Positions 36,472 through 47,175 of a stretch of DNA of 64,000 bases are shown in pieces; the stretch's first letter is position 1, and each line of letters begins with the position of its first letter. The notes under the pieces were generated by a model. The model worked only from the letters and a program-made list of their open reading frames with translations. It searched no databases and was not told where the DNA came from. The stretch is from Anaerolineae bacterium. GTDB taxonomy: Bacteria; Chloroflexota; Anaerolineae; Anaerolineales; E44-bin32. Where the stretch lies: assembly GCA_011174825.1 (NCBI GenBank), contig DUEZ01000068.1, positions 1-64,000 on the forward strand. Direction: 5' to 3'. Made by a program: the position numbers and the translations under genes.

Positions 36472-36813
36472 TTAGAAAAGTCCCCACTCGGCTGCGGCAC
36501 TGTCCTCCATCATGCTTGGTTCCCACATCTCCATCCCGAGTTCGATCGTGGTAGAGAGCCTCGCGACCTCCTCGGCCTTAGCCCGTGCGCTCTCAAGTAA
36601 TGCTGGACCGTATGGACAGAAAGGCGTCGTCAGAATCATTTTTACTTCGAGGCGATCATCATCCATCGAAACACCCCTAACCAATCCAAGTTCGATAATA
36701 CTCATGCCCAATTCAGGGTCCAGAACCTGACGCAAGGCCTGACGGATCTCGTCGGCTTTGATTGGGTGTGTTGAATCGATTTCCCAGATCAGCTTCGATA
36801 CGTCTTCGCTCAT
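36472..36813 (-). CDS. SufT-like DUF59/MIP18 family protein
   Basis: DUF59 proteins help mature Fe-S proteins. The 113-residue product has the family core LRQVLDPELGMSIIELGLV and TTPFCPYGPALLESA, with the conserved Cys in FCP. Its start overlaps the sufR stop by 4 bp (ATGA), so it is coupled with the regulator and part of the Suf locus. A promoter shared with sufR lies at 37452-37480. Confidence 0.88.
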   Translation of the reverse strand: MSEDVSKLIWEIDSTHPIKADEIRQALRQVLDPELGMSIIELGLVRGVSMDDDRLEVKMILTTPFCPYGPALLESARAKAEEVARLSTTIELGMEMWEPSMMEDSAAAEWGLF

Positions 36814-37442
36814 TCCGCCAGTTCTCCTTCAGGTAAGTGCACGACGAAGGAACAATGTGTATCTCCATCAGTGAGACAATTTACCCGCTCGAAGGGAAGG
36901 GAAAGCGTCTTGGCGATGAGTTCTTGATCGATAAAATTCACTTCAGGGTGGTGTTGAACGAGCTGCAAGTAGGGACAACTGAGTAATCGAATGATGACCT
37001 GATCACCTTGGAGTTCATACTCAGCATCAAATCCTTCGTTTGAGAGCATGGCCATCAACTTAGGAAGTCGTTCCTCCATTGGGAGGTGCTCATATGATCC
37101 AATGAAGTCATCAGCGATCGTGCTCGCCATACGAGAGAACAGAGATTTCACCCTTTCAGGAGACATCTCGTATTTGATTTCATCCAGCAAACGGTTGGTC
37201 AATTGAAAATAGCGGGTGGGGAAGAGTTCGATCCCTTCATCGGTGAGCGAGAACGCATGATGTGGGCGACCTACGCCATGACGAACCTCTTTGGTCGTGA
37301 CGAGTCCCTCTGCCTGGAGTTGCGTCAGGTGATGTCGCACAGAGACAGGCGAGATGCCCACAACATCAGCCAACTCCTTCACTGTGCAATGCCCCTGTGT
37401 CCGAAGAGAACGCAGGATCGTTTCTCGCGTAGGGGATGTCAT
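36810..37442 (-). CDS. sufR: SufR-type Fe-S-sensing transcriptional repressor
   Basis: Residues 1-75 form a winged helix (CTVKELADVVGISPVSVRHH, LQAEGLVTTKEVRHGVGRPH). The C-terminal half holds cysteines at LLSCPYLQL, RVNCLTDGD and DTHCSF, which match the Fe-S ligand set of SufR proteins. SufR represses suf when its cluster is loaded. The gene diverges from sufC and is likely autoregulated. The ATG at 37442 has no ribosome binding site and lies 9 nt after the -10 box, so the mRNA should be nearly leaderless. It has 210 residues. Confidence 0.88.
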   Translation of the reverse strand: MTSPTRETILRSLRTQGHCTVKELADVVGISPVSVRHHLTQLQAEGLVTTKEVRHGVGRPHHAFSLTDEGIELFPTRYFQLTNRLLDEIKYEMSPERVKSLFSRMASTIADDFIGSYEHLPMEERLPKLMAMLSNEGFDAEYELQGDQVIIRLLSCPYLQLVQHHPEVNFIDQELIAKTLSLPFERVNCLTDGDTHCSFVVHLPEGELAE

Positions 37443-37451
37443 CGTTCTCGC

Positions 37452-37480
37452 AGTATACCCACAAGCTCACGATATGTCAA
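37452..37480 (-). promoter_or_regulatory. sufR promoter
   Basis: On the minus strand, TTGACA (37480-37475) and TATACT (37457-37452) are exactly 17 bp apart. The operator copy at 37479-37498 abuts and slightly overlaps the -35 box. Confidence 0.75.
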
Positions 37481-37498
37481 TATTTAAGATATTTATCA
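37479..37498. promoter_or_regulatory. Candidate SufR operator, copy 1
   Basis: The 20-bp AATATTTAAGATATTTATCA is repeated exactly at 37545. The core AATATTTAAGATATT is palindromic apart from one base pair. It touches the sufR -35 box. Confidence 0.6.
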
Positions 37499-37544
37499 TT
37501 TATATACCTCTGAAGCAAGCTTCAAACCTCGAAGAGCAAGTGTG

Positions 37545-37564
37545 AATATTTAAGATATTTATCA
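37545..37564. promoter_or_regulatory. Candidate SufR operator, copy 2
   Basis: This is an exact copy of the 20-bp element, 66 bp from copy 1. It ends 6 bp before the suf -35 box. A further AATATT overlaps that box. Confidence 0.6.
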
Positions 37565-37570
37565 CAAATA

Positions 37571-37599
37571 TTGACTAGTTTGAAGCTGCGTGCTATAAT
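37571..37599 (+). promoter_or_regulatory. suf operon promoter
   Basis: TTGACT (37571-37576) and TATAAT (37594-37599) are exactly 17 bp apart. The leader to sufC is about 48 nt and ends with GGAGG. Confidence 0.8.
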
Positions 37600-37653: not shown

Positions 37654-38436
37654 ATGTCTGCGACCTTAGAAATCCACGATCTTCACGTTGCTGTCGAGGG
37701 TAAAGAGATCCTAAAGGGTGTGAATCTAACAGTGAAGCGGGGAGAGATTCACGCACTGATGGGCCCAAACGGTACAGGTAAATCCACCCTCGCATATAGT
37801 TTGATGGGGCATCCAAAATATGAGGTCACGCAAGGTCGGATGATCTTAAAAGGCAAAGAATTGAATGATCTTGAGCCAGACGAACGCTCTCGTTTAGGTC
37901 TATTCCTCGCCTTCCAGTACCCGGTGGCAATCCCTGGGGTTTCGCTGGCTAATTTTCTGCGGATGGCGATCAACGCTCAACGTCGGGGGAGCAACCCGGA
38001 TGACAAAGGTATTTCCATCCCTGTGTTCCGCGCAAAGTTGAAGGAGAAGATGGATCTCCTTCAGATGTCCCACGAATTTGCGGGAAGGTACTTGAACGAA
38101 GGATTCTCGGGTGGTGAAAAGAAACGCGCTGAAATCCTGCAGTTAGCAGCCCTTGAACCAGAGATCGCCGTGCTCGACGAGACCGATTCCGGGCTTGATA
38201 TCGATGCGCTGCGAATTGTAGCGTCCGGCGTCAACACGCTCGCAGGCCCAGAGCTTGGCGTTCTGATCATCACACATTACCAACGCATTTTGAACTATAT
38301 CAAACCTGATTTCGTCCACATTATGCTCGATGGGAAGATTGTTGAGTCTGCAGGTGCGGATCTGGCTGAGCATTTGGAAGAGCATGGTTACGATTGGATA
38401 AGAGAAAAGTATAACGGTAATCTTGTGGAGGTATAA
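37654..38436 (+). CDS. sufC: Fe-S cluster assembly ATPase SufC
   Basis: SufC is the ABC-type ATPase of the SufBCD scaffold. Walker A is GPNGTGKST, the signature is GFSGGEKKR, and Walker B is [12 protein letters not shown]. The 260-residue length is typical. GGAGG lies upstream of the ATG. Two bases separate its stop from the sufB start. Confidence 0.97.
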
Positions 38437-38438
38437 CC

Positions 38439-39851
38439 ATGGCGGCTGAGTCGGATATTGAACGGCTTGAAGGGTTAGACAAGTATAAGTATGGTTTCAG
38501 CGACCCTGATGTCTCCGTTTTTAAGACCCGCAAGGGTCTTGACCGCGAAGTTGTAGAACAAATCTCACATATGAAAGGTGAACCGGAATGGATGCTCGAA
38601 TTCCGGCTCAAAGCACTTCAGCACTTCGAGAAACGTCCGATGCCCACATGGGGTGGGGACCTGAGTAAGCTCAATCTCGACGATATCTACTACTATGTAC
38701 GACCCGCCGAGAAGGAGGGACGTAGTTGGGACGAAGTCCCTGAGACGATCAAAGAGACTTTCAACCGTCTAGGTATCCCTGAAGCAGAGCAGAAGTTTCT
38801 AGCTGGTGTCGGAGCTCAATACGAATCGGAGATGGTCTACCACAGTGTGCAGAAACATCTCGAAGAACAGGGTGTGATCTTTGTCAGCATTGAAGACGGT
38901 CTCCGTCAGCATGAGGAGTTGTTCCGAGAATACTTCGGTAAAGTTATCCCATACACCGATAATAAGTTCGCCGCCTTGAACAGTGCTGTGTGGTCTGGTG
39001 GTTCTTTCGTCTACGTCCCACCAGGGACTACTGTAAACTTACCTCTCCAAGCCTACTTTCGCTTGAATGTTGCCAACATCGGGCAATTCGAGCGTACCAT
39101 CATCATCGTCGATGAGGGCGCTCAGGTACACTATGTGGAGGGGTGCACAGCGCCTACTTATACCACTGATTCCTTTCACAGCGGTGTGATCGAGATTATC
39201 GTTAAAAGGGGCGCTCGTTGTCGCTATACCACGATCCAAAATTGGTCGATTAACGTTTACAACTTGGTTACCCAACGGGCGATGGTACATGAGAATGCCA
39301 CGATGGAGTGGGTGGATGCCAACCTCGGTAGCCAACTAACGATGAAATACCCTTCCTGCTATCTCGTCGGGGAGGGGGCACACGGTGAGATCCTCTCGAT
39401 GGCTTTCGCAGCCGAAGGGCAACACCAGGACGCTGGCGGCAAGGTTATCCACGCCGCGCCTCATACAACAAGCAAGATCACATCCAAATCCATAAGCAAG
39501 GGAAGTGGAAGAGCTTCCTACCGCGGGTTACTCAAGGTATATAAAGACGCGGTGGGAGCGAAATCGAATGTTGTTTGCGACGCGTTGCTTCTTGATCCAC
39601 AGTCTCGCTCCGATACCTATCCATACATCGAGATCGATGAAGACGATGTAACCATAGGCCACGAGGCATCGGTCAGCAAAGTAGGCGAGCAGCAACTTTT
39701 CTACCTCATGAGTCGTGGGTTGAATGAGGAGGAGGCCACTACGATGGTCGTCTCGGGGTTCATCGAACCGTTGGTGAAGGAACTCCCGATGGAATATGCC
39801 GTAGAGATGAACCGCTTAATTCAACTTCAGATGGAAGGATCCATCGGCTAG
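38439..39851 (+). CDS. sufB: Fe-S cluster assembly protein SufB
   Basis: SufB is the scaffold subunit on which clusters form. The right-handed beta-helix core contains [29 protein letters not shown], with its conserved Cys, and the C-terminal [20 protein letters not shown]. The length is 470 residues. GGAGG lies before the ATG. Confidence 0.97.
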
Positions 39852-39915: not shown

Positions 39916-41268
39916 ATGAGTCAAAGCACCATCATTCGTCCCAGGCGGAAAATTCAGCCTAAGGTCACCCCTGAATTCTCATTTACAGAGGCTGATGTCG
40001 TACAGGCTTCTACGCGTTTAAAAGAACCTGCTTGGTTGGCAAATCGGCGCCTCAATGCCTGGGAGCTCTATCGTAGCTTACCGATGCCTACTACGAAGGA
40101 CGAGCCCTGGCGCCGAACCGATATCAGACGCCTTCCTGCAAATGAGTTGGTTATAAAGCCTGCGGAGGCGCTCCCTGTCGATTCAAAGCTGCACAAGCCC
40201 CTGGTGAGCGAGGCCGACGAATGGGTGCTGACGATTAGTCCAGGCCATCCACCGATCCTAAAAGGGGATCGGAAACTGCGGGAACTCGGTGTTATCGCGG
40301 TTGATTGGGCCACAGCCGTGAGAGAACATCAGGAAATCCTGAAGGATTACTTAGGAAAGATCGTTCCAGACGAGGATGGAAAATTTTCGGCTCTGGCGTC
40401 CGCCATGGCTGAATTCGGTGTTCTCCTCTATGTGCCTCCAGGTATCGAGATTGAAAAACCCTTACACTCGATCTTCTGGGCTCCTGGAACCCAGGCGGCC
40501 TATTTCAGTCGTTTATTAATAATCATCGGGGAGGGGTCCTCGGTCACGTACGTACACGAAACCGCTTCTCCGACATCCTCCGATGGCTCTTCCGTACACG
40601 CTGGTATTGTCGAGATAGATCTTGCAAAGCAAGCTAAATTTAACTTTATCGAGTTCCAGAATCTCGGCCAGCATGTGTGGAATTTCACCCATGAGAGAGC
40701 ACATGTAGGACGTCAGGCACGGCTGGATTGGGTCTATGGTGGTATTGGCAGCCATCTGACCAAGAATTTCACAGAATTCGATCTGCTTGCCGAGGGTGCT
40801 GAAGGTCGGATGTCTGCGTTCTATTTTGCTGATAATGTACAGCATCTTGATCATGATACACAACAAAACCATCTCGCACCCAATACAACCAGCGATTTGC
40901 TTTTCAAAGGTGCCTTATTGGACCGCAGTCGATCGGTATGGCAAGGGATGATCTACGTTGCCCCTGCTGCCCAGATGACGGATGGTTATCAGGCGAATCG
41001 GAATTTGATTCTTAGCAAACAAGCACGAGCGGATTCAATCCCTGGTTTGGAAATTTTGGCTGATGATGTCCGTTGTACACATGGAGCGACAGTTGGACAG
41101 TTAGAGGAAGAATCGATCTTCTACCTGATGTCCCGTGGTTTACCTCGTCGTGATGCGAAACGGATGATGATTGAAGGTTTTTTCGCGGCGGTCTTGGAGC
41201 GTGTTCCATTCGAGAGCGTACGAGACCGATTTCAAGGTATGATAGAGAATAAACTGAGTAAGGTTTAG
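39916..41268 (+). CDS. sufD: Fe-S cluster assembly protein SufD
   Basis: SufD is the SufB paralogue and partner. Shared features are YVPPGIEIEKPLHSIFW, the C-terminal CTHGATVGQLEEESIFYLMS and SRGLPRRDAKRMMIEGFF. The histidine important for iron entry would be in the CTHGA segment. It encodes 450 residues. GAGGATAAC precedes the ATG. Confidence 0.95.
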   Translation: MSQSTIIRPRRKIQPKVTPEFSFTEADVVQASTRLKEPAWLANRRLNAWELYRSLPMPTTKDEPWRRTDIRRLPANELVIKPAEALPVDSKLHKPLVSEADEWVLTISPGHPPILKGDRKLRELGVIAVDWATAVREHQEILKDYLGKIVPDEDGKFSALASAMAEFGVLLYVPPGIEIEKPLHSIFWAPGTQAAYFSRLLIIIGEGSSVTYVHETASPTSSDGSSVHAGIVEIDLAKQAKFNFIEFQNLGQHVWNFTHERAHVGRQARLDWVYGGIGSHLTKNFTEFDLLAEGAEGRMSAFYFADNVQHLDHDTQQNHLAPNTTSDLLFKGALLDRSRSVWQGMIYVAPAAQMTDGYQANRNLILSKQARADSIPGLEILADDVRCTHGATVGQLEEESIFYLMSRGLPRRDAKRMMIEGFFAAVLERVPFESVRDRFQGMIENKLSKV

Positions 41269-41314
41269 CCATCGGCGAACCTCTCAGTTTTGAATTAACA
41301 TTTGGGAGAGAACA

Positions 41315-41608
41315 TTGGCAAAGGAAAGTATCAATTCGCCGGCAGTGAAAAAAGTCCACCGTAAACCGTACCAGGCTGGTGATAGGGTGGATATCTACTG
41401 CGATCATAATCAGGACGGCGTTCGGGTCCGCGACTGGCTTAGTGGGGTGGTCGTACAAGCGGATCGGAAAATGGTGGCCGTCCAGTTTCTTGAAGACGTT
41501 TACCTCACGAACGGCTGGATGGTGCCGGATCGGGTATTGTGGTGTCTGCAAAACAGTGACACCATAAGACCTACTGCACGACGTCGTTCACGCCCCAAAA
41601 GAAAATAA
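41315..41608 (+). CDS. Small basic protein inside the suf operon, unknown function
   Basis: This 97-residue product reads like one compact beta-rich, SH3-like domain (YQAGDRVDIYC, WLSGVVVQADRKMVAVQFLE, GWMVPDRVLWC). A strongly basic tail follows (ARRRSRPKRK). Two cysteines, in IYCD and LWCL, could be functional. It is not a known Suf protein. The TTG start at 41315 has GGGAGAG upstream. It lies 46 bp after sufD and 15 bp before sufS, so it is certainly co-transcribed with them. Confidence 0.75.
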   Translation: MAKESINSPAVKKVHRKPYQAGDRVDIYCDHNQDGVRVRDWLSGVVVQADRKMVAVQFLEDVYLTNGWMVPDRVLWCLQNSDTIRPTARRRSRPKRK

Positions 41609-41623
41609 CCTCGGAGACCAATT

Positions 41624-42871
41624 ATGCACATCGACCCTGACCTCGCTGTGCTGGACATCGAACATGTGCGGGGCCAATTTCCCATCTTATCACGGGAGAT
41701 CAAACCTGGTGTGCCGCTGATTTACCTGGACTCAGCGGCTACATCCCAGAAGCCGCGTCAGGTGATCGAGGCGATGTCGACATATTATGAGCGCCATAAC
41801 GCCAACGTCCATCGAGGCATCCATCTCCTGGCTGAGGAAGCCACAACCTCCTTCGAATCCTCTCGTGAAAAGGTGGCGGAATTCATCGGGGCGGAATCTG
41901 CGCGCCAAGTGATCTTCACGCGCAACACGACGGAAGCCATCAACCTGGTAGCTTACTCTTGGGCTCGAGCGAATCTGGATACAGGTGACCTGATCGTGCT
42001 AACTGAAATGGAGCACCATTCGAACATGGTGCCCTGGCAGATTCTTGCCGAAGAGCGTGGGGTCCGTTTAGCTTTTATTACCGTCACCGAAGATGGACTG
42101 CTCGATCTTAGTTCATTCCACGACTTGCTGGAAGAAAAACCACGCCTGGTCGCGTTCACGCATATGTCGAACATGTTGGGTACAATCAATCCGGTGAAAG
42201 AGATGACACGCTTAGCCCAGGACTCCGGTTCGGTGGTTCTCATCGATGGTGCACAAGCGGTGCCGCACCTCCCTGTGAATGTTTTGGACATCGGCGCTGA
42301 TTTCTATGCCTTCTCTGCACACAAGATGTGTGGGCCGACGGGCATCGGCGTGCTTTATGGAAGAGAGGATTTGTTGGAGGAGATGCCGCCCTTCCTCGGT
42401 GGCGGGGACATGATCAAACGTGTCCAGCTAGAGTCATTCACGACAAACGATCTCCCTTATAAGTTCGAAGCAGGTACTCCACCCATCGCCGAGGGAATCG
42501 GCTTGGGTGCTGCGATTGATTTCTTAACCTCGATCGGTATGCAAGCTGTTCATCAACATGAGAAGCTGCTGATTGGACGGATGCTGGATCGTCTGGACGA
42601 GGTCCCTGGGGTCAAGGTTTATGGTCCGAGCGTTAACCACAAAGGTGGAGTAGCCTCGTTTTCGTTTGAGGGCATTCATCCGCATGATGTGGCCCAGATT
42701 CTCGATTCTCAAGGGATCGCAGTGCGGGCTGGCCATCATTGTGCGATGCCTATCCATGAAAAATTTGGGCTGCCAGCGACAACGCGCGCCTCTTTTTACT
42801 TGTATAACACAGTGGAAGAAGTTGATTCACTGATCGAGGGTTTGTATAAAGTAAAGGAGATCTTTAATTAA
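41624..42871 (+). CDS. sufS: Cysteine desulfurase SufS
   Basis: SufS takes sulfur from cysteine as a persulfide for cluster assembly. It is a PLP enzyme of the type II NifS group. The PLP lysine lies in FSAHKMCGPTGIG near residue 231. The persulfide cysteine lies in RAGHHCAMP near residue 372. The N-terminal YLDSAATSQKP is diagnostic. It has 415 residues. Confidence 0.96.
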   Translation: MHIDPDLAVLDIEHVRGQFPILSREIKPGVPLIYLDSAATSQKPRQVIEAMSTYYERHNANVHRGIHLLAEEATTSFESSREKVAEFIGAESARQVIFTRNTTEAINLVAYSWARANLDTGDLIVLTEMEHHSNMVPWQILAEERGVRLAFITVTEDGLLDLSSFHDLLEEKPRLVAFTHMSNMLGTINPVKEMTRLAQDSGSVVLIDGAQAVPHLPVNVLDIGADFYAFSAHKMCGPTGIGVLYGREDLLEEMPPFLGGGDMIKRVQLESFTTNDLPYKFEAGTPPIAEGIGLGAAIDFLTSIGMQAVHQHEKLLIGRMLDRLDEVPGVKVYGPSVNHKGGVASFSFEGIHPHDVAQILDSQGIAVRAGHHCAMPIHEKFGLPATTRASFYLYNTVEEVDSLIEGLYKVKEIFN

Positions 42872-43151
42872 TTCGACCTGAACAAAGGCCATCATCCTGA
42901 GCCCTGTCATACGTGTCCTGAGCGTTTTCGGTAGGCTCGTAGAAGGATCATTGAACGGTTGTCATGCGATGATGGCACGTCGCTTCCATAACCCTGGGTG
43001 AGATCCGGATTGTAGTTGGATGGGTTGAAACAAGTCGAGCAGATTAATTTATTTTCGATTCATCAACCATGCGGATTAGGTTTGTTGTCATGATCATCGG
43101 GTATCATTAGGAAGTCTTTCGCAAGCTAAAATCAAGAACAAGGATGCGTAC

Positions 43152-43550
43152 ATGGATGACCTGTATCGTGAGCAAATCATCGATCGATATAAATATCCCC
43201 TCAAGAAAGGTACCCTGGAACCGAACGATTTCTCCTATGAAGACGATAACCCATTGTGCGGTGACCGAATTCGGATCGATGTGCGTATCGATAATAATGA
43301 ATTTGTCACGGAAGCTGCATTCTCTGGCACGGGCTGCGCTATCTCGCAGGCTTCAGCGGATCTGTTGATGGAATCCATCATCGGGATGAAACTCGATGAA
43401 GTAAAGGCGTTGACAAAGGAAGACATTATGGAGTTGTTGGGGATTCAACTTGGACCCGTACGTCTGAAATGCGCATTGTTATCGTTAAAGGTCCTCAAAG
43501 CTGGCGTGTATGGCCTCGATGAGCTGGAGGAGGAACTGGCTCAGATATAA
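43152..43550 (+). CDS. sufU: Sulfur-transfer/scaffold protein SufU
   Basis: SufU accepts sulfur from SufS via a zinc-bound cysteine exchange. The three conserved cysteines are in NPLCGDRI, GTGCAISQAS and RLKCALL, and the zinc Asp is in the first motif. The length of 132 residues is usual. It follows sufS after a 280-bp gap containing degenerate repeat-like sequence and has AAGGA upstream. Confidence 0.94.
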   Translation: MDDLYREQIIDRYKYPLKKGTLEPNDFSYEDDNPLCGDRIRIDVRIDNNEFVTEAAFSGTGCAISQASADLLMESIIGMKLDEVKALTKEDIMELLGIQLGPVRLKCALLSLKVLKAGVYGLDELEEELAQI

Positions 43551-43591
43551 ACTATTGAGTGATGAGCGGGAATATATTTTAGGTGGGATGG

Positions 43592-43945
43592 ATGTTCAAC
43601 TACCATGACCTCGAGGAAGATCAAGTGGCATTTGTGACCGTCGCGTCGATTAACGAGCTGGCGGAAGGGGAGAGGTTGATCTTTGAGATCGACGACGTGC
43701 CGGTTGCCTTGTTCAACCTCGGTGGTCACTACTATGCCATCGCGGACCTCTGTTCACACGACGATGGTCCCGTAGCGGAAGGGGAGTTGGAGGGGTTGGA
43801 GATCGTTTGCCCTCGCCATGGCGCACGCTTCAATATCGAAACCGGGGAAGCATTGACGTTGCCAGCGGTAGTGGATATCCCGGTTTACCCGGTGCGGGTG
43901 ATGGGGGATGATATCCAGATAGGAATTCCTATTGAGGAAGATTGA
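43592..43945 (+). CDS. Rieske [2Fe-2S] ferredoxin
   Basis: This 117-residue non-haem Rieske protein has the cluster ligands CSHDDGPV (C-x-H) and CPRHGARF (C-x-x-H). It has no transmembrane helix, so it is soluble, like ferredoxin components of dioxygenases or NirD. Its place at the end of the suf operon suggests electron supply for cluster assembly (inference). The ATG at 43592 is preferred over a GTG at 43583 because AGGTGGG sits at the right distance. Confidence 0.9.
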   Translation: MFNYHDLEEDQVAFVTVASINELAEGERLIFEIDDVPVALFNLGGHYYAIADLCSHDDGPVAEGELEGLEIVCPRHGARFNIETGEALTLPAVVDIPVYPVRVMGDDIQIGIPIEED

Positions 43946-44484: not shown

Positions 44485-47175
44485 ATGTCGCAAAAGTGGG
44501 TGTATCTCTTCGACGAGGTCGAAGAGGCGGAAGAAAAAGCTAAAAGTTGGGAAGGCGTCCGAGCGTTGCTCGGAGGCAAGGGTGCCAATCTGGCCGAGAT
44601 GACCCGTATCAACGTACCCGTACCACCGGGATTCACAGTTACGACGGAAGCCTGCAACGCGTATTTAGCGGCCGGTGATGCATTCCCCGAAGGCATGTGG
44701 GAACAAGAACTGGAAGCCCTGAGAGCGGTGGAAGAGAAGACGGGTAAGAAATTCGGCAATCCGAAAAACCCGTTGCTTGTCTCTAGCCGGTCGGGAGCTA
44801 AATTCTCCATGCCCGGCATGATGGACACGGTATTGAACATTGGCCTGAATGACGAGACAGCGCAAGGTATGATCGAATTGACCGGCGATCCACGTTTCGT
44901 TTATGACTCCTACCGACGCTTGGTCCAGATGTTTGGCGCGGTGGTTATGGATGTTCCGGACGAACCCTTCGAGGAGGTTATCACCAAGTACCGCGAGAAG
45001 CGCGGCGTCAAGATCGACGCTGAGCTCACCGCAGAGGATTGGATGGCGATCACTGAAGAGTTTAAGAAGATTGTGAAAGAACATACCGGGAAGAACTTTC
45101 CTCTGGATCCTTACGAGCAGCTCCGCATGGCAACGGAAGCGGTCTTCAAATCCTGGAACGGTAAACGCGCGGTGGACTATCGCAACGCGGCCGGCATCTC
45201 ACACAGTTTGGGGACCGGAGTCAATATCCAAACCATGGTCTTCGGCAACATGGGCGACGATTCTGGTACAGGCGTGGCGACATCTCGCAATGTCTCAACA
45301 GGGGAGAAGGATATCGAAGGAGACTACTTGATCAACGCCCAGGGTGAGGATGTGGTTGCGGGAATCCGACTGACCAAACCGATCGCTGAGCTCAAGAAGG
45401 ATATGCCCGAGATCTATTCCGAATTCGAGGACATCAACCAGGTCCTTGAGAAGCACTATCGCGAAGTACAAGATGTCGAGTTCACTATCGAGCTTGGTAA
45501 GCTCTGGATGCTACAGACCCGTGACAGCAAGCGTACAGCCCAAGCGGCAGTGCGCATAGCCGTCGATTTGGCGGAAGAGGGGTTGATCACACGGCAAGAG
45601 GCCGTGCTGCGGGTGTCGCCGGATCAGGTGGATTTCTTCCTCCATCCGCAATTTGAGCCCGTGGCAAAGAAAAAAGCTGCTGATGAGGGGAAGAAGATCG
45701 CCACTGGCCTGAACGTTTCCCCAGGCGCCGCAGTAGGACAGATCGCTTTCGACGCTGATTTGGCCGCTAGGTGGGCTAAGGAAGAGGGTTATCAGGTCAT
45801 CATGGTTCGTCCTGAGACCAAGCCCGACGATGTGCACGGTATGCTGGCTGCGAAGGGGATACTCACCAGTCGCGGTGGCCGGACCAGCCACGCAGCTTTG
45901 GTGGCACGACAGTTTGGCAAACCAGCGGTCGTTGGCGTGGCCGCACTAGAGATCGACCTGGAGAAGCGACAGATGTCCGTGGATGGGCGTACGATCAAGG
46001 AGGGCGACTGGATCTCGATCGACGGCACCGAAGGGGAGGTATTCCTAGGGCAGCTCGAGACCATGGTGCCCGATATCAACGACCTCTATCTGATCAAGCT
46101 CCTATCCTGGGCAGACGAGTTCCGTCGCTTGGGTGTATGGGCCAATGCTGACTATCCGCGTGATGCTCAACGGGCTCGCGATTACGGTGCGCAGGGCATC
46201 GGCCTCTGCCGCACCGAGCATATGTTTTTCGAGACCGAGCGTCTACCTTACGTCCAGCAGATGATCCTCGCCAAGACGGAGGAGGAGAGAGAAGCGGCTC
46301 TGGAGACGCTGCTACCTTTTCAGCGCTCCGATTTCGAGGGATTGTTCCGGGTGATGGATGGGTTGCCGGTCATCATCCGATTGATCGACCCGCCGTTGCA
46401 CGAGTTCCTCCCCAGTCATGATGAGCTGCTTGTTGAGGTCACCGAGTTGCGAATCAGGGGGGATGATCCTGAGTCGTTAGCTGATAAAGAGAAGATGCTG
46501 GCGGCGGTGGAATCGATGCGCGAAGCCAACCCCATGTTGGGCTTGCGCGGTGTACGATTGGGTATTCACATGCCAGGTGTGACCAAGATGCAGGTCAGGG
46601 CAGTCTTCGAAGCTGCGTGCAAAGTTGCGAAGGAAGGTGTTGTCGTCATTCCTGAGGTGATGATCCCACTGACCAGCCATGTGAACGAGCTGAAAGATCA
46701 ACAGGCAGCGCTGGAAGAGGTGGCCAAGCATGTGATGGAGGAGCAGGGGATCGAAGTTGAGTACAAGTTTGGGACGATGATCGAGATCCCACGTGCAGCA
46801 TTGACAGCCAGGGAAATCGCTCAGTATGCTCAATTCTTCTCGTTCGGAACCAACGATTTGACCCAGACCACCTTCGGCATCAGCCGTGATGACGCTGAAG
46901 CTGGGTTCCTCATCGAATACATCGAAAAGCAGATCTTACCCGGGAACCCGTTCCAGTCCATTGACGGTGATGGTGTGGGTAGGCTGATGCGCTTGGCGAC
47001 GGATGAGGGCCGCGAGACCCGCCCGGATTTGGAGGTGGGCATCTGTGGAGAGCACGGTGGCGATCCAGATTCCATCCTGTTATGCCATAAGTATGGTTTG
47101 AACTATGTCAGTTGCTCTCCCTTCAGGGTACCGGTAGCGCGTCTTGCGGCGGCGCATGCATCGTTGAAGGAATAG
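44485..47175 (+). CDS. ppdK: Pyruvate, phosphate dikinase
   Basis: PPDK interconverts pyruvate + ATP + Pi and PEP + AMP + PPi, in gluconeogenesis or PPi-linked glycolysis. The N-terminal nucleotide-binding domain starts GGKGANLAEMTRINVPVPPG. The swivelling phosphohistidine domain has TSRGGRTSHAALVARQFGKP near residue 465. The C-terminal TIM barrel ends with VGICGEHGGDP, which holds the catalytic cysteine. It has 896 residues and a single AGGAGGG ribosome site. It has its own promoter and terminator. Confidence 0.97.
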   Translation: MSQKWVYLFDEVEEAEEKAKSWEGVRALLGGKGANLAEMTRINVPVPPGFTVTTEACNAYLAAGDAFPEGMWEQELEALRAVEEKTGKKFGNPKNPLLVSSRSGAKFSMPGMMDTVLNIGLNDETAQGMIELTGDPRFVYDSYRRLVQMFGAVVMDVPDEPFEEVITKYREKRGVKIDAELTAEDWMAITEEFKKIVKEHTGKNFPLDPYEQLRMATEAVFKSWNGKRAVDYRNAAGISHSLGTGVNIQTMVFGNMGDDSGTGVATSRNVSTGEKDIEGDYLINAQGEDVVAGIRLTKPIAELKKDMPEIYSEFEDINQVLEKHYREVQDVEFTIELGKLWMLQTRDSKRTAQAAVRIAVDLAEEGLITRQEAVLRVSPDQVDFFLHPQFEPVAKKKAADEGKKIATGLNVSPGAAVGQIAFDADLAARWAKEEGYQVIMVRPETKPDDVHGMLAAKGILTSRGGRTSHAALVARQFGKPAVVGVAALEIDLEKRQMSVDGRTIKEGDWISIDGTEGEVFLGQLETMVPDINDLYLIKLLSWADEFRRLGVWANADYPRDAQRARDYGAQGIGLCRTEHMFFETERLPYVQQMILAKTEEEREAALETLLPFQRSDFEGLFRVMDGLPVIIRLIDPPLHEFLPSHDELLVEVTELRIRGDDPESLADKEKMLAAVESMREANPMLGLRGVRLGIHMPGVTKMQVRAVFEAACKVAKEGVVVIPEVMIPLTSHVNELKDQQAALEEVAKHVMEEQGIEVEYKFGTMIEIPRAALTAREIAQYAQFFSFGTNDLTQTTFGISRDDAEAGFLIEYIEKQILPGNPFQSIDGDGVGRLMRLATDEGRETRPDLEVGICGEHGGDPDSILLCHKYGLNYVSCSPFRVPVARLAAAHASLKE

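Follow-up and report, generated by a model that had tools for sequence, protein, structure and literature searches.

The SUF system is among the best-studied systems of Fe-S cluster assembly, and its usual inventory comprises SufA-E, SufR, SufS, SufT and SufU. The window (the whole stretch of 64,000 nucleotides that was analysed) carries a suf operon with one small additional gene, here called X97, between sufD and sufS. The locus raises the question of whether this gene encodes a further component of a known system and, if so, what its product may do. The original prediction was of an undescribed protein with an SH3-like core, acting in cluster assembly or in linking SufBCD to SufS.

The suf operon and its additional gene

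X97 occupies positions 41315-41608 of the forward strand, starts with TTG and has 97 codons, as described earlier. SufD ends at 41268, leaving a gap of 46 nt, and 15 nt separate X97 from the ATG of sufS (41624). A ribosome-binding site, GGGAGAG (41304-41310, +), lies 4 nt 5' of the TTG. On the same strand, the operon consists of sufC (37654-38436; TIGR01978), sufB (38439-39851; TIGR01980), sufD (39916-41268; TIGR01981), X97, the cysteine desulfurase gene sufS (41624-42871; TIGR01979), sufU (43152-43550; TIGR01994) and a gene for a Rieske-type ferredoxin (43583-43945; PF00355). Genes for a SufR-like regulator (36810-37442; TIGR02702, with a score under the model cut-off) and a SufT-like protein (36472-36813; PF01883) are divergently oriented on the reverse strand.

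The start codon (TTG or GTG) and the purine-rich ribosome site are kept in close relatives (L031-L034), and dN/dS values were 0.03-0.19. A frame artefact was ruled out by these conserved starts and dN/dS values. Judged from sequence conservation, X97 is a real, translated gene, since its dN/dS, its spread across the order and its constant slot far exceed chance.

A sigma70-like promoter of the suf operon (TTGACT-17-TATAAT) was predicted at 37571-37599 of the forward strand. Immediately 5' of the sufC -35 box is a predicted SufR-type operator, GTGAATATTTAAGATATTTATCAC (37542-37565), and a second predicted operator, GTCAATATTTAAGATATTTATCAT (37476-37499), overlaps the -35 box of the divergent sufR promoter. 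The two are near-identical, palindrome-like sites of 24 bp, kept in three relatives, and are predicted, as a likely reading, to be SufR operators. Neither a promoter-like nor a terminator-like site was found on the forward strand of the sufD-sufS interval, and the arrangement fits a prediction of X97 being carried on one SufR-controlled suf transcript. The shared promoter under SufR control that had been proposed is thus backed, at the level of prediction, by two conserved palindromic sites in the promoter region.

The gap between sufS and sufU (42872-43151) measures 280 bp in the window and in its nearest relatives, and contains neither a conserved ORF nor an Rfam match. A pyruvate phosphate dikinase-like gene (44485-47175) is found downstream of the suf operon, likewise in several relatives.

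Distribution and gene order of X97 in relatives

In profile searches, X97 was detected in 253 of 301 genomes of Anaerolineales (164 of the 174 high-quality ones), and outside the order just one divergent copy was found within the class. When 400 genomes of the phylum were searched with the single sequence, all listed members of the order had X97, and it was found essentially nowhere outside it. A separate scan, covering about 85,000 species genomes and sensitive to close relatives only, returned 17 loci, all from Anaerolineae and all (17/17) with suf genes adjoining X97. A match in Methylobacterium (L048) covered 28 residues in a locus in which no suf gene was found, and was treated as due to chance. 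Plasmids and phages gave zero matches, and X97 as mobile-element cargo was rejected on that ground. The suf operon of two families in the same order (f143 and f147) contains no X97; the gene is therefore not needed for SUF as such. A tree of 59 X97 sequences had two strongly supported groups, the divergent one consisting of f144, f138, f5 and the G425 copy; the underlying alignment is short, and the tree does not settle finer branching.

The conservation of X97 in other suf operons, on which the original prediction hinged, was borne out by gene order. SufD lies upstream of X97 in 75 of 82 loci, the exact order sufD-X97-sufS recurs in 63 of 82, and the large majority of loci, spread over about twelve families, show linkage to suf genes. 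A preserved position beside the suf core genes is expected of a SUF accessory protein, and X97 is very probably a lineage-specific one of Anaerolineales.

Two genera of family f3 (g8 and g12) bear on the proposed link between SufBCD and SufS. Both retain sufC-sufB-sufD-X97 and have lost the sufS and sufU of the operon (in g8 the Rieske gene still follows X97); no close SufU was found in their genomes, and a SufS-SufE pair is encoded at a separate site. The retention of X97 is thus independent of SufU and of the operon's own SufS, and a strict SufBCD-SufS or SufU linker was ruled out. A role in cluster assembly stands as the best guess and, as judged from gene context, probably concerns the scaffold or the delivery of sulfur; the specific linking function does not stand.

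Other arrangements, seen in the divergent group of the tree (the sister subfamily), place X97 beside sulfurtransferases. Three genomes of f144 have sufD-X97-rhodanese, with sufS directly next in one and a second NifU-like gene before sufS in two. In family f5 the suf operon is without X97, and three genomes of this family carry a divergent X97 in an operon with genes for CysM, a JAMM peptidase, a ThiS- or MoaD-like carrier and a ThiF-rhodanese protein, with additional rhodanese and thioredoxin genes in G318 and TusA and DsrE-like genes in G776. This gene set matches CysO-CysM-Mec+-MoeZ, a sulfur-transfer pathway for cysteine (PMC3227635). Its placement next to rhodanese and among genes of cysteine synthesis suggests that X97 is generally concerned with sulfane sulfur and not with iron, and the gene contexts as a whole suggest sulfane-sulfur transfer as their common theme.

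A few loci depart from these patterns. In G867 the order is X97-sufS-sufU-Rieske and sufD does not adjoin; in G903 X97 is solitary next to a tyrosyl-tRNA-synthetase-like gene, with divergent SufB, SufD and SufS encoded elsewhere; and one copy, in G425, lies outside suf and sulfur operons. In two loci of family f145 the suf operon is broken up around X97 by other genes. In L164 sufD and X97 are separated by one gene resembling a DNA methyltransferase and by another, related to it and possibly of restriction type; in L162 a gene related to this second one separates X97 from sufS. In sister orders, which have no X97, the sufD-sufS slot is empty or holds the same rhodanese as in f144 and/or the NifU-like gene. 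Two-domain rhodaneses occupy it in L082, L086, L089, L097, L103-L105, L111 and L118, often together with a second NifU-like gene, which is a further unusual layout of a SUF operon; a literature search found nothing on rhodanese in suf operons of Chloroflexi.

Predicted fold and conserved residues of X97

No family in Pfam or NCBIfam claims X97; its sole Pfam match was a spurious one to Alfin (0.035), and none of the curated models for SufA, SufB, SufC, SufD, SufE, SufR, SufS, SufT or SufU matched, in line with the earlier claim that no described Suf protein has this form. AlphaFold, run on an alignment of 18 sequences, gave a core pLDDT of about 95, the expected strands and disordered ends; the core (approximately residues 17-88) is confidently predicted as a five-stranded Tudor/SH3-like barrel of the chromo-like superfamily. 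VIA-align placed the model among Tudor domains, that of SETDB1 matching with Z 7.9 and an rmsd of 1.7 across 54 residues, and other matches included PHF1, PHF19, agenet proteins, the small E subunit of photosystem I, ZapC and a UvrD-UvrB complex. For the Tudor matches Z was middling, at 6-7.9, with rmsd mostly 1.6-3, and a Z below 8 alone may reflect merely a common arrangement. The commonest sub-threshold Pfam match was Agenet (PF05641), found in 16 of 18 members (best 2e-4), with a best score of 22.1 against a cut-off of 27 bits. Foldseek gave no significant match to the model, and searches of PDB sequences with the single sequence and with a profile gave chance-level matches only; the Tudor assignment is thus based on VIA-align and the weak Agenet profile. 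Together, the AlphaFold barrel and the VIA-align Tudor matches bear out the SH3-like core.

X97 resembles Tudor and agenet proteins in its predicted barrel (SETDB1, PHF1, PHF19, agenet) and frequent weak Agenet match, but differs from them in falling below the Agenet gathering score and in that the bacterial domain stands alone, as the whole product of one suf-operon gene. Bacterial Tudor-like domains are known from two E. coli proteins, ZapC, for which binding to a protein tail has been demonstrated (PMC4686002), and ProQ (PMC5393179). Unlike X97, these proteins are multi-domain, act in cell division or RNA biology and have no sulfur link.

Among 78 distinct X97 sequences, Cys29 is present in 77 (lost in G290) and His31 also in 77 (lost in G318). 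Further near-invariant positions include Trp41, Gly44, Phe58, Tyr/Phe63, Gly67, Trp68, Pro71, Asp72, Leu75, Trp76 and Arg85. The second of the two cysteines pointed out in the original prediction, Cys77, is variable (31/78). Sequence alignment with the PHF1 Tudor domain covered the central hairpin only and was without significance, with Phe58 opposite the Phe of the PHF1 VQF stretch; on the model, Cys29 would stand in place of the first aromatic (Trp) of the PHF1 cage, the kind of cage with which Tudor domains bind methylated Lys or Arg, if the register from model residue 16 to PHF1 residue 28 is ungapped. A reading of X97 as a Rieske protein or ferredoxin was rejected: each chain has a single conserved CxH (Cys29-x-His31) in place of the Rieske pair CxH ... 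CxxH, and the true Rieske protein is encoded at 43583-43945.

The basic tail that had been described is C-terminal in the window; its position varies by family, being long, K/A-rich and N-terminal in f2, weak in others and almost absent in g8. The barrel itself is neutral to acidic, with a net charge of 0 to -8. The f2 homologues (L003-L005, L011, L013, L014, L018, L019, L023-L030) carry at the N terminus a tail that is rich in K, A and P, resembles histone H1 and reaches about 170 residues at most; the majority of them end in IPDY or a similar motif.

Possible functions of X97

X97 is a good candidate for a new, lineage-specific component of the known SUF system, and a literature search, with subscription papers mostly outside its reach, found no description of it. 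Like SufE and SufU, X97 is small, belongs to the same system and has a conserved cysteine, but it has another fold, coexists with SufU or SufE where examined and persists with either. Like SufT (PF01883) and the Rieske ferredoxin, it is a non-core accessory gene of the operon; those two are unrelated to it in sequence and, unlike it, occur also in sister orders without X97. In M. tuberculosis, SufT is needed for Fe-S maturation (PMC9045647).

The reading tentatively preferred here, from gene context, is that X97 is an accessory docking or relay protein for the hand-off of sulfur to SufBCD. The barrel would form a docking module on the SufBCD scaffold, probably at SufD or at the SufB-SufD face, and would help sulfane sulfur to be handed over safely from whichever carrier is there, be it SufU, SufE or a rhodanese. 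Cys29, which shares a strand with His31 at a distance of two residues and is close to the ligand site of Tudor domains, might, more conjecturally, serve as a transient persulfide site, and a persulfide on this residue is doubtful. It is rather unlikely that X97 represents a sulfur-transfer protein of a new class, namely a persulfide relay with a bacterial Tudor fold that has a cysteine in place of one wall of its ligand cage and serves both SUF assembly and, in the sister subfamily, sulfur-carrier-dependent cysteine synthesis. The single natural losses of Cys29 (G290) and His31 (G318) count against essential chemistry. The suf operons of f143 and f147, which have no X97, the solitary X97 of G903, the copy of G867 without an adjoining sufD, and a Tudor match that is structural, with Agenet below its cut-off, also weigh against the hand-off reading. 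If the claim is true, X97 adds a new component to SUF, and one docking fold ties together two sulfur-transfer pathways, those of SUF and of cysteine synthesis; small recombinant proteins would suffice for a direct test.

The nearest rival to sulfur hand-off is a purely structural one, in which X97 would be a non-catalytic Tudor-type adaptor whose barrel binds a tail or loop of SufD/SufB, or of client apoproteins, stabilizing SufBC2D or targeting clusters, with Cys29 in a structural role. Such an adaptor is a real possibility, though not a probable one: some bacterial Tudor-like domains do dock, as ZapC does on the FtsZ tail (PMC4686002); ZapC and the UvrD-UvrB complex are among the structural matches of X97; aromatic residues are abundant at conserved sites (Trp41, Phe58, Tyr/Phe63, Trp68 and Trp76); and Cys29 has been lost in G290. 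By itself, however, it accounts neither for the near-invariance of Cys29 and His31 (77/78 each) nor for the pairing of one subfamily with sulfurtransferases.

An unlikely alternative is that X97 handles metal, with Cys29-x-His31, half of a Rieske-like pair, binding iron, zinc or an interfacial Fe-S cluster during assembly together with ligands supplied by a partner or by another X97 chain. The near-invariance of the CxH, the true Rieske protein encoded in the same operon and the proposal that the nascent SUF cluster forms with ligands of SufB and SufD (PMC6006206) speak for it. A chain offers just two nearly invariant soft ligands, however, of which His31 is missing in G318 and Cys29 in G290, and iron is not evidently needed in the context of the cysteine-synthesis operon.

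It is very unlikely that X97 is a nucleic-acid-binding or ribosome-associated regulator, for example of suf mRNA, with a KOW/L19-like barrel and basic tails. Weak matches to L19 in Pfam and to L19/eL21 in the PDB, and tails that are strongly basic in some families, are consistent with such a role; against it stand the neutral to acidic charge of the conserved barrel, the lack of conservation of the basic tails and the linkage of X97 to suf and sulfur genes. An X97 that merely travels with the suf operon and does unrelated housekeeping work, as the G903 and G425 copies outside suf and sulfur operons might suggest, is highly improbable given the suf linkage in most loci of some twelve families and the joint absence of X97 and detectable SufD from two well assembled genomes (G799 and G750).

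Apart from X97, SufB was found to be interrupted by at least one long insert in several relatives (L037, L042, L154, L098, L099 and G772), which is suggestive of inteins; those open frames that were measured span about 840-890 aa.
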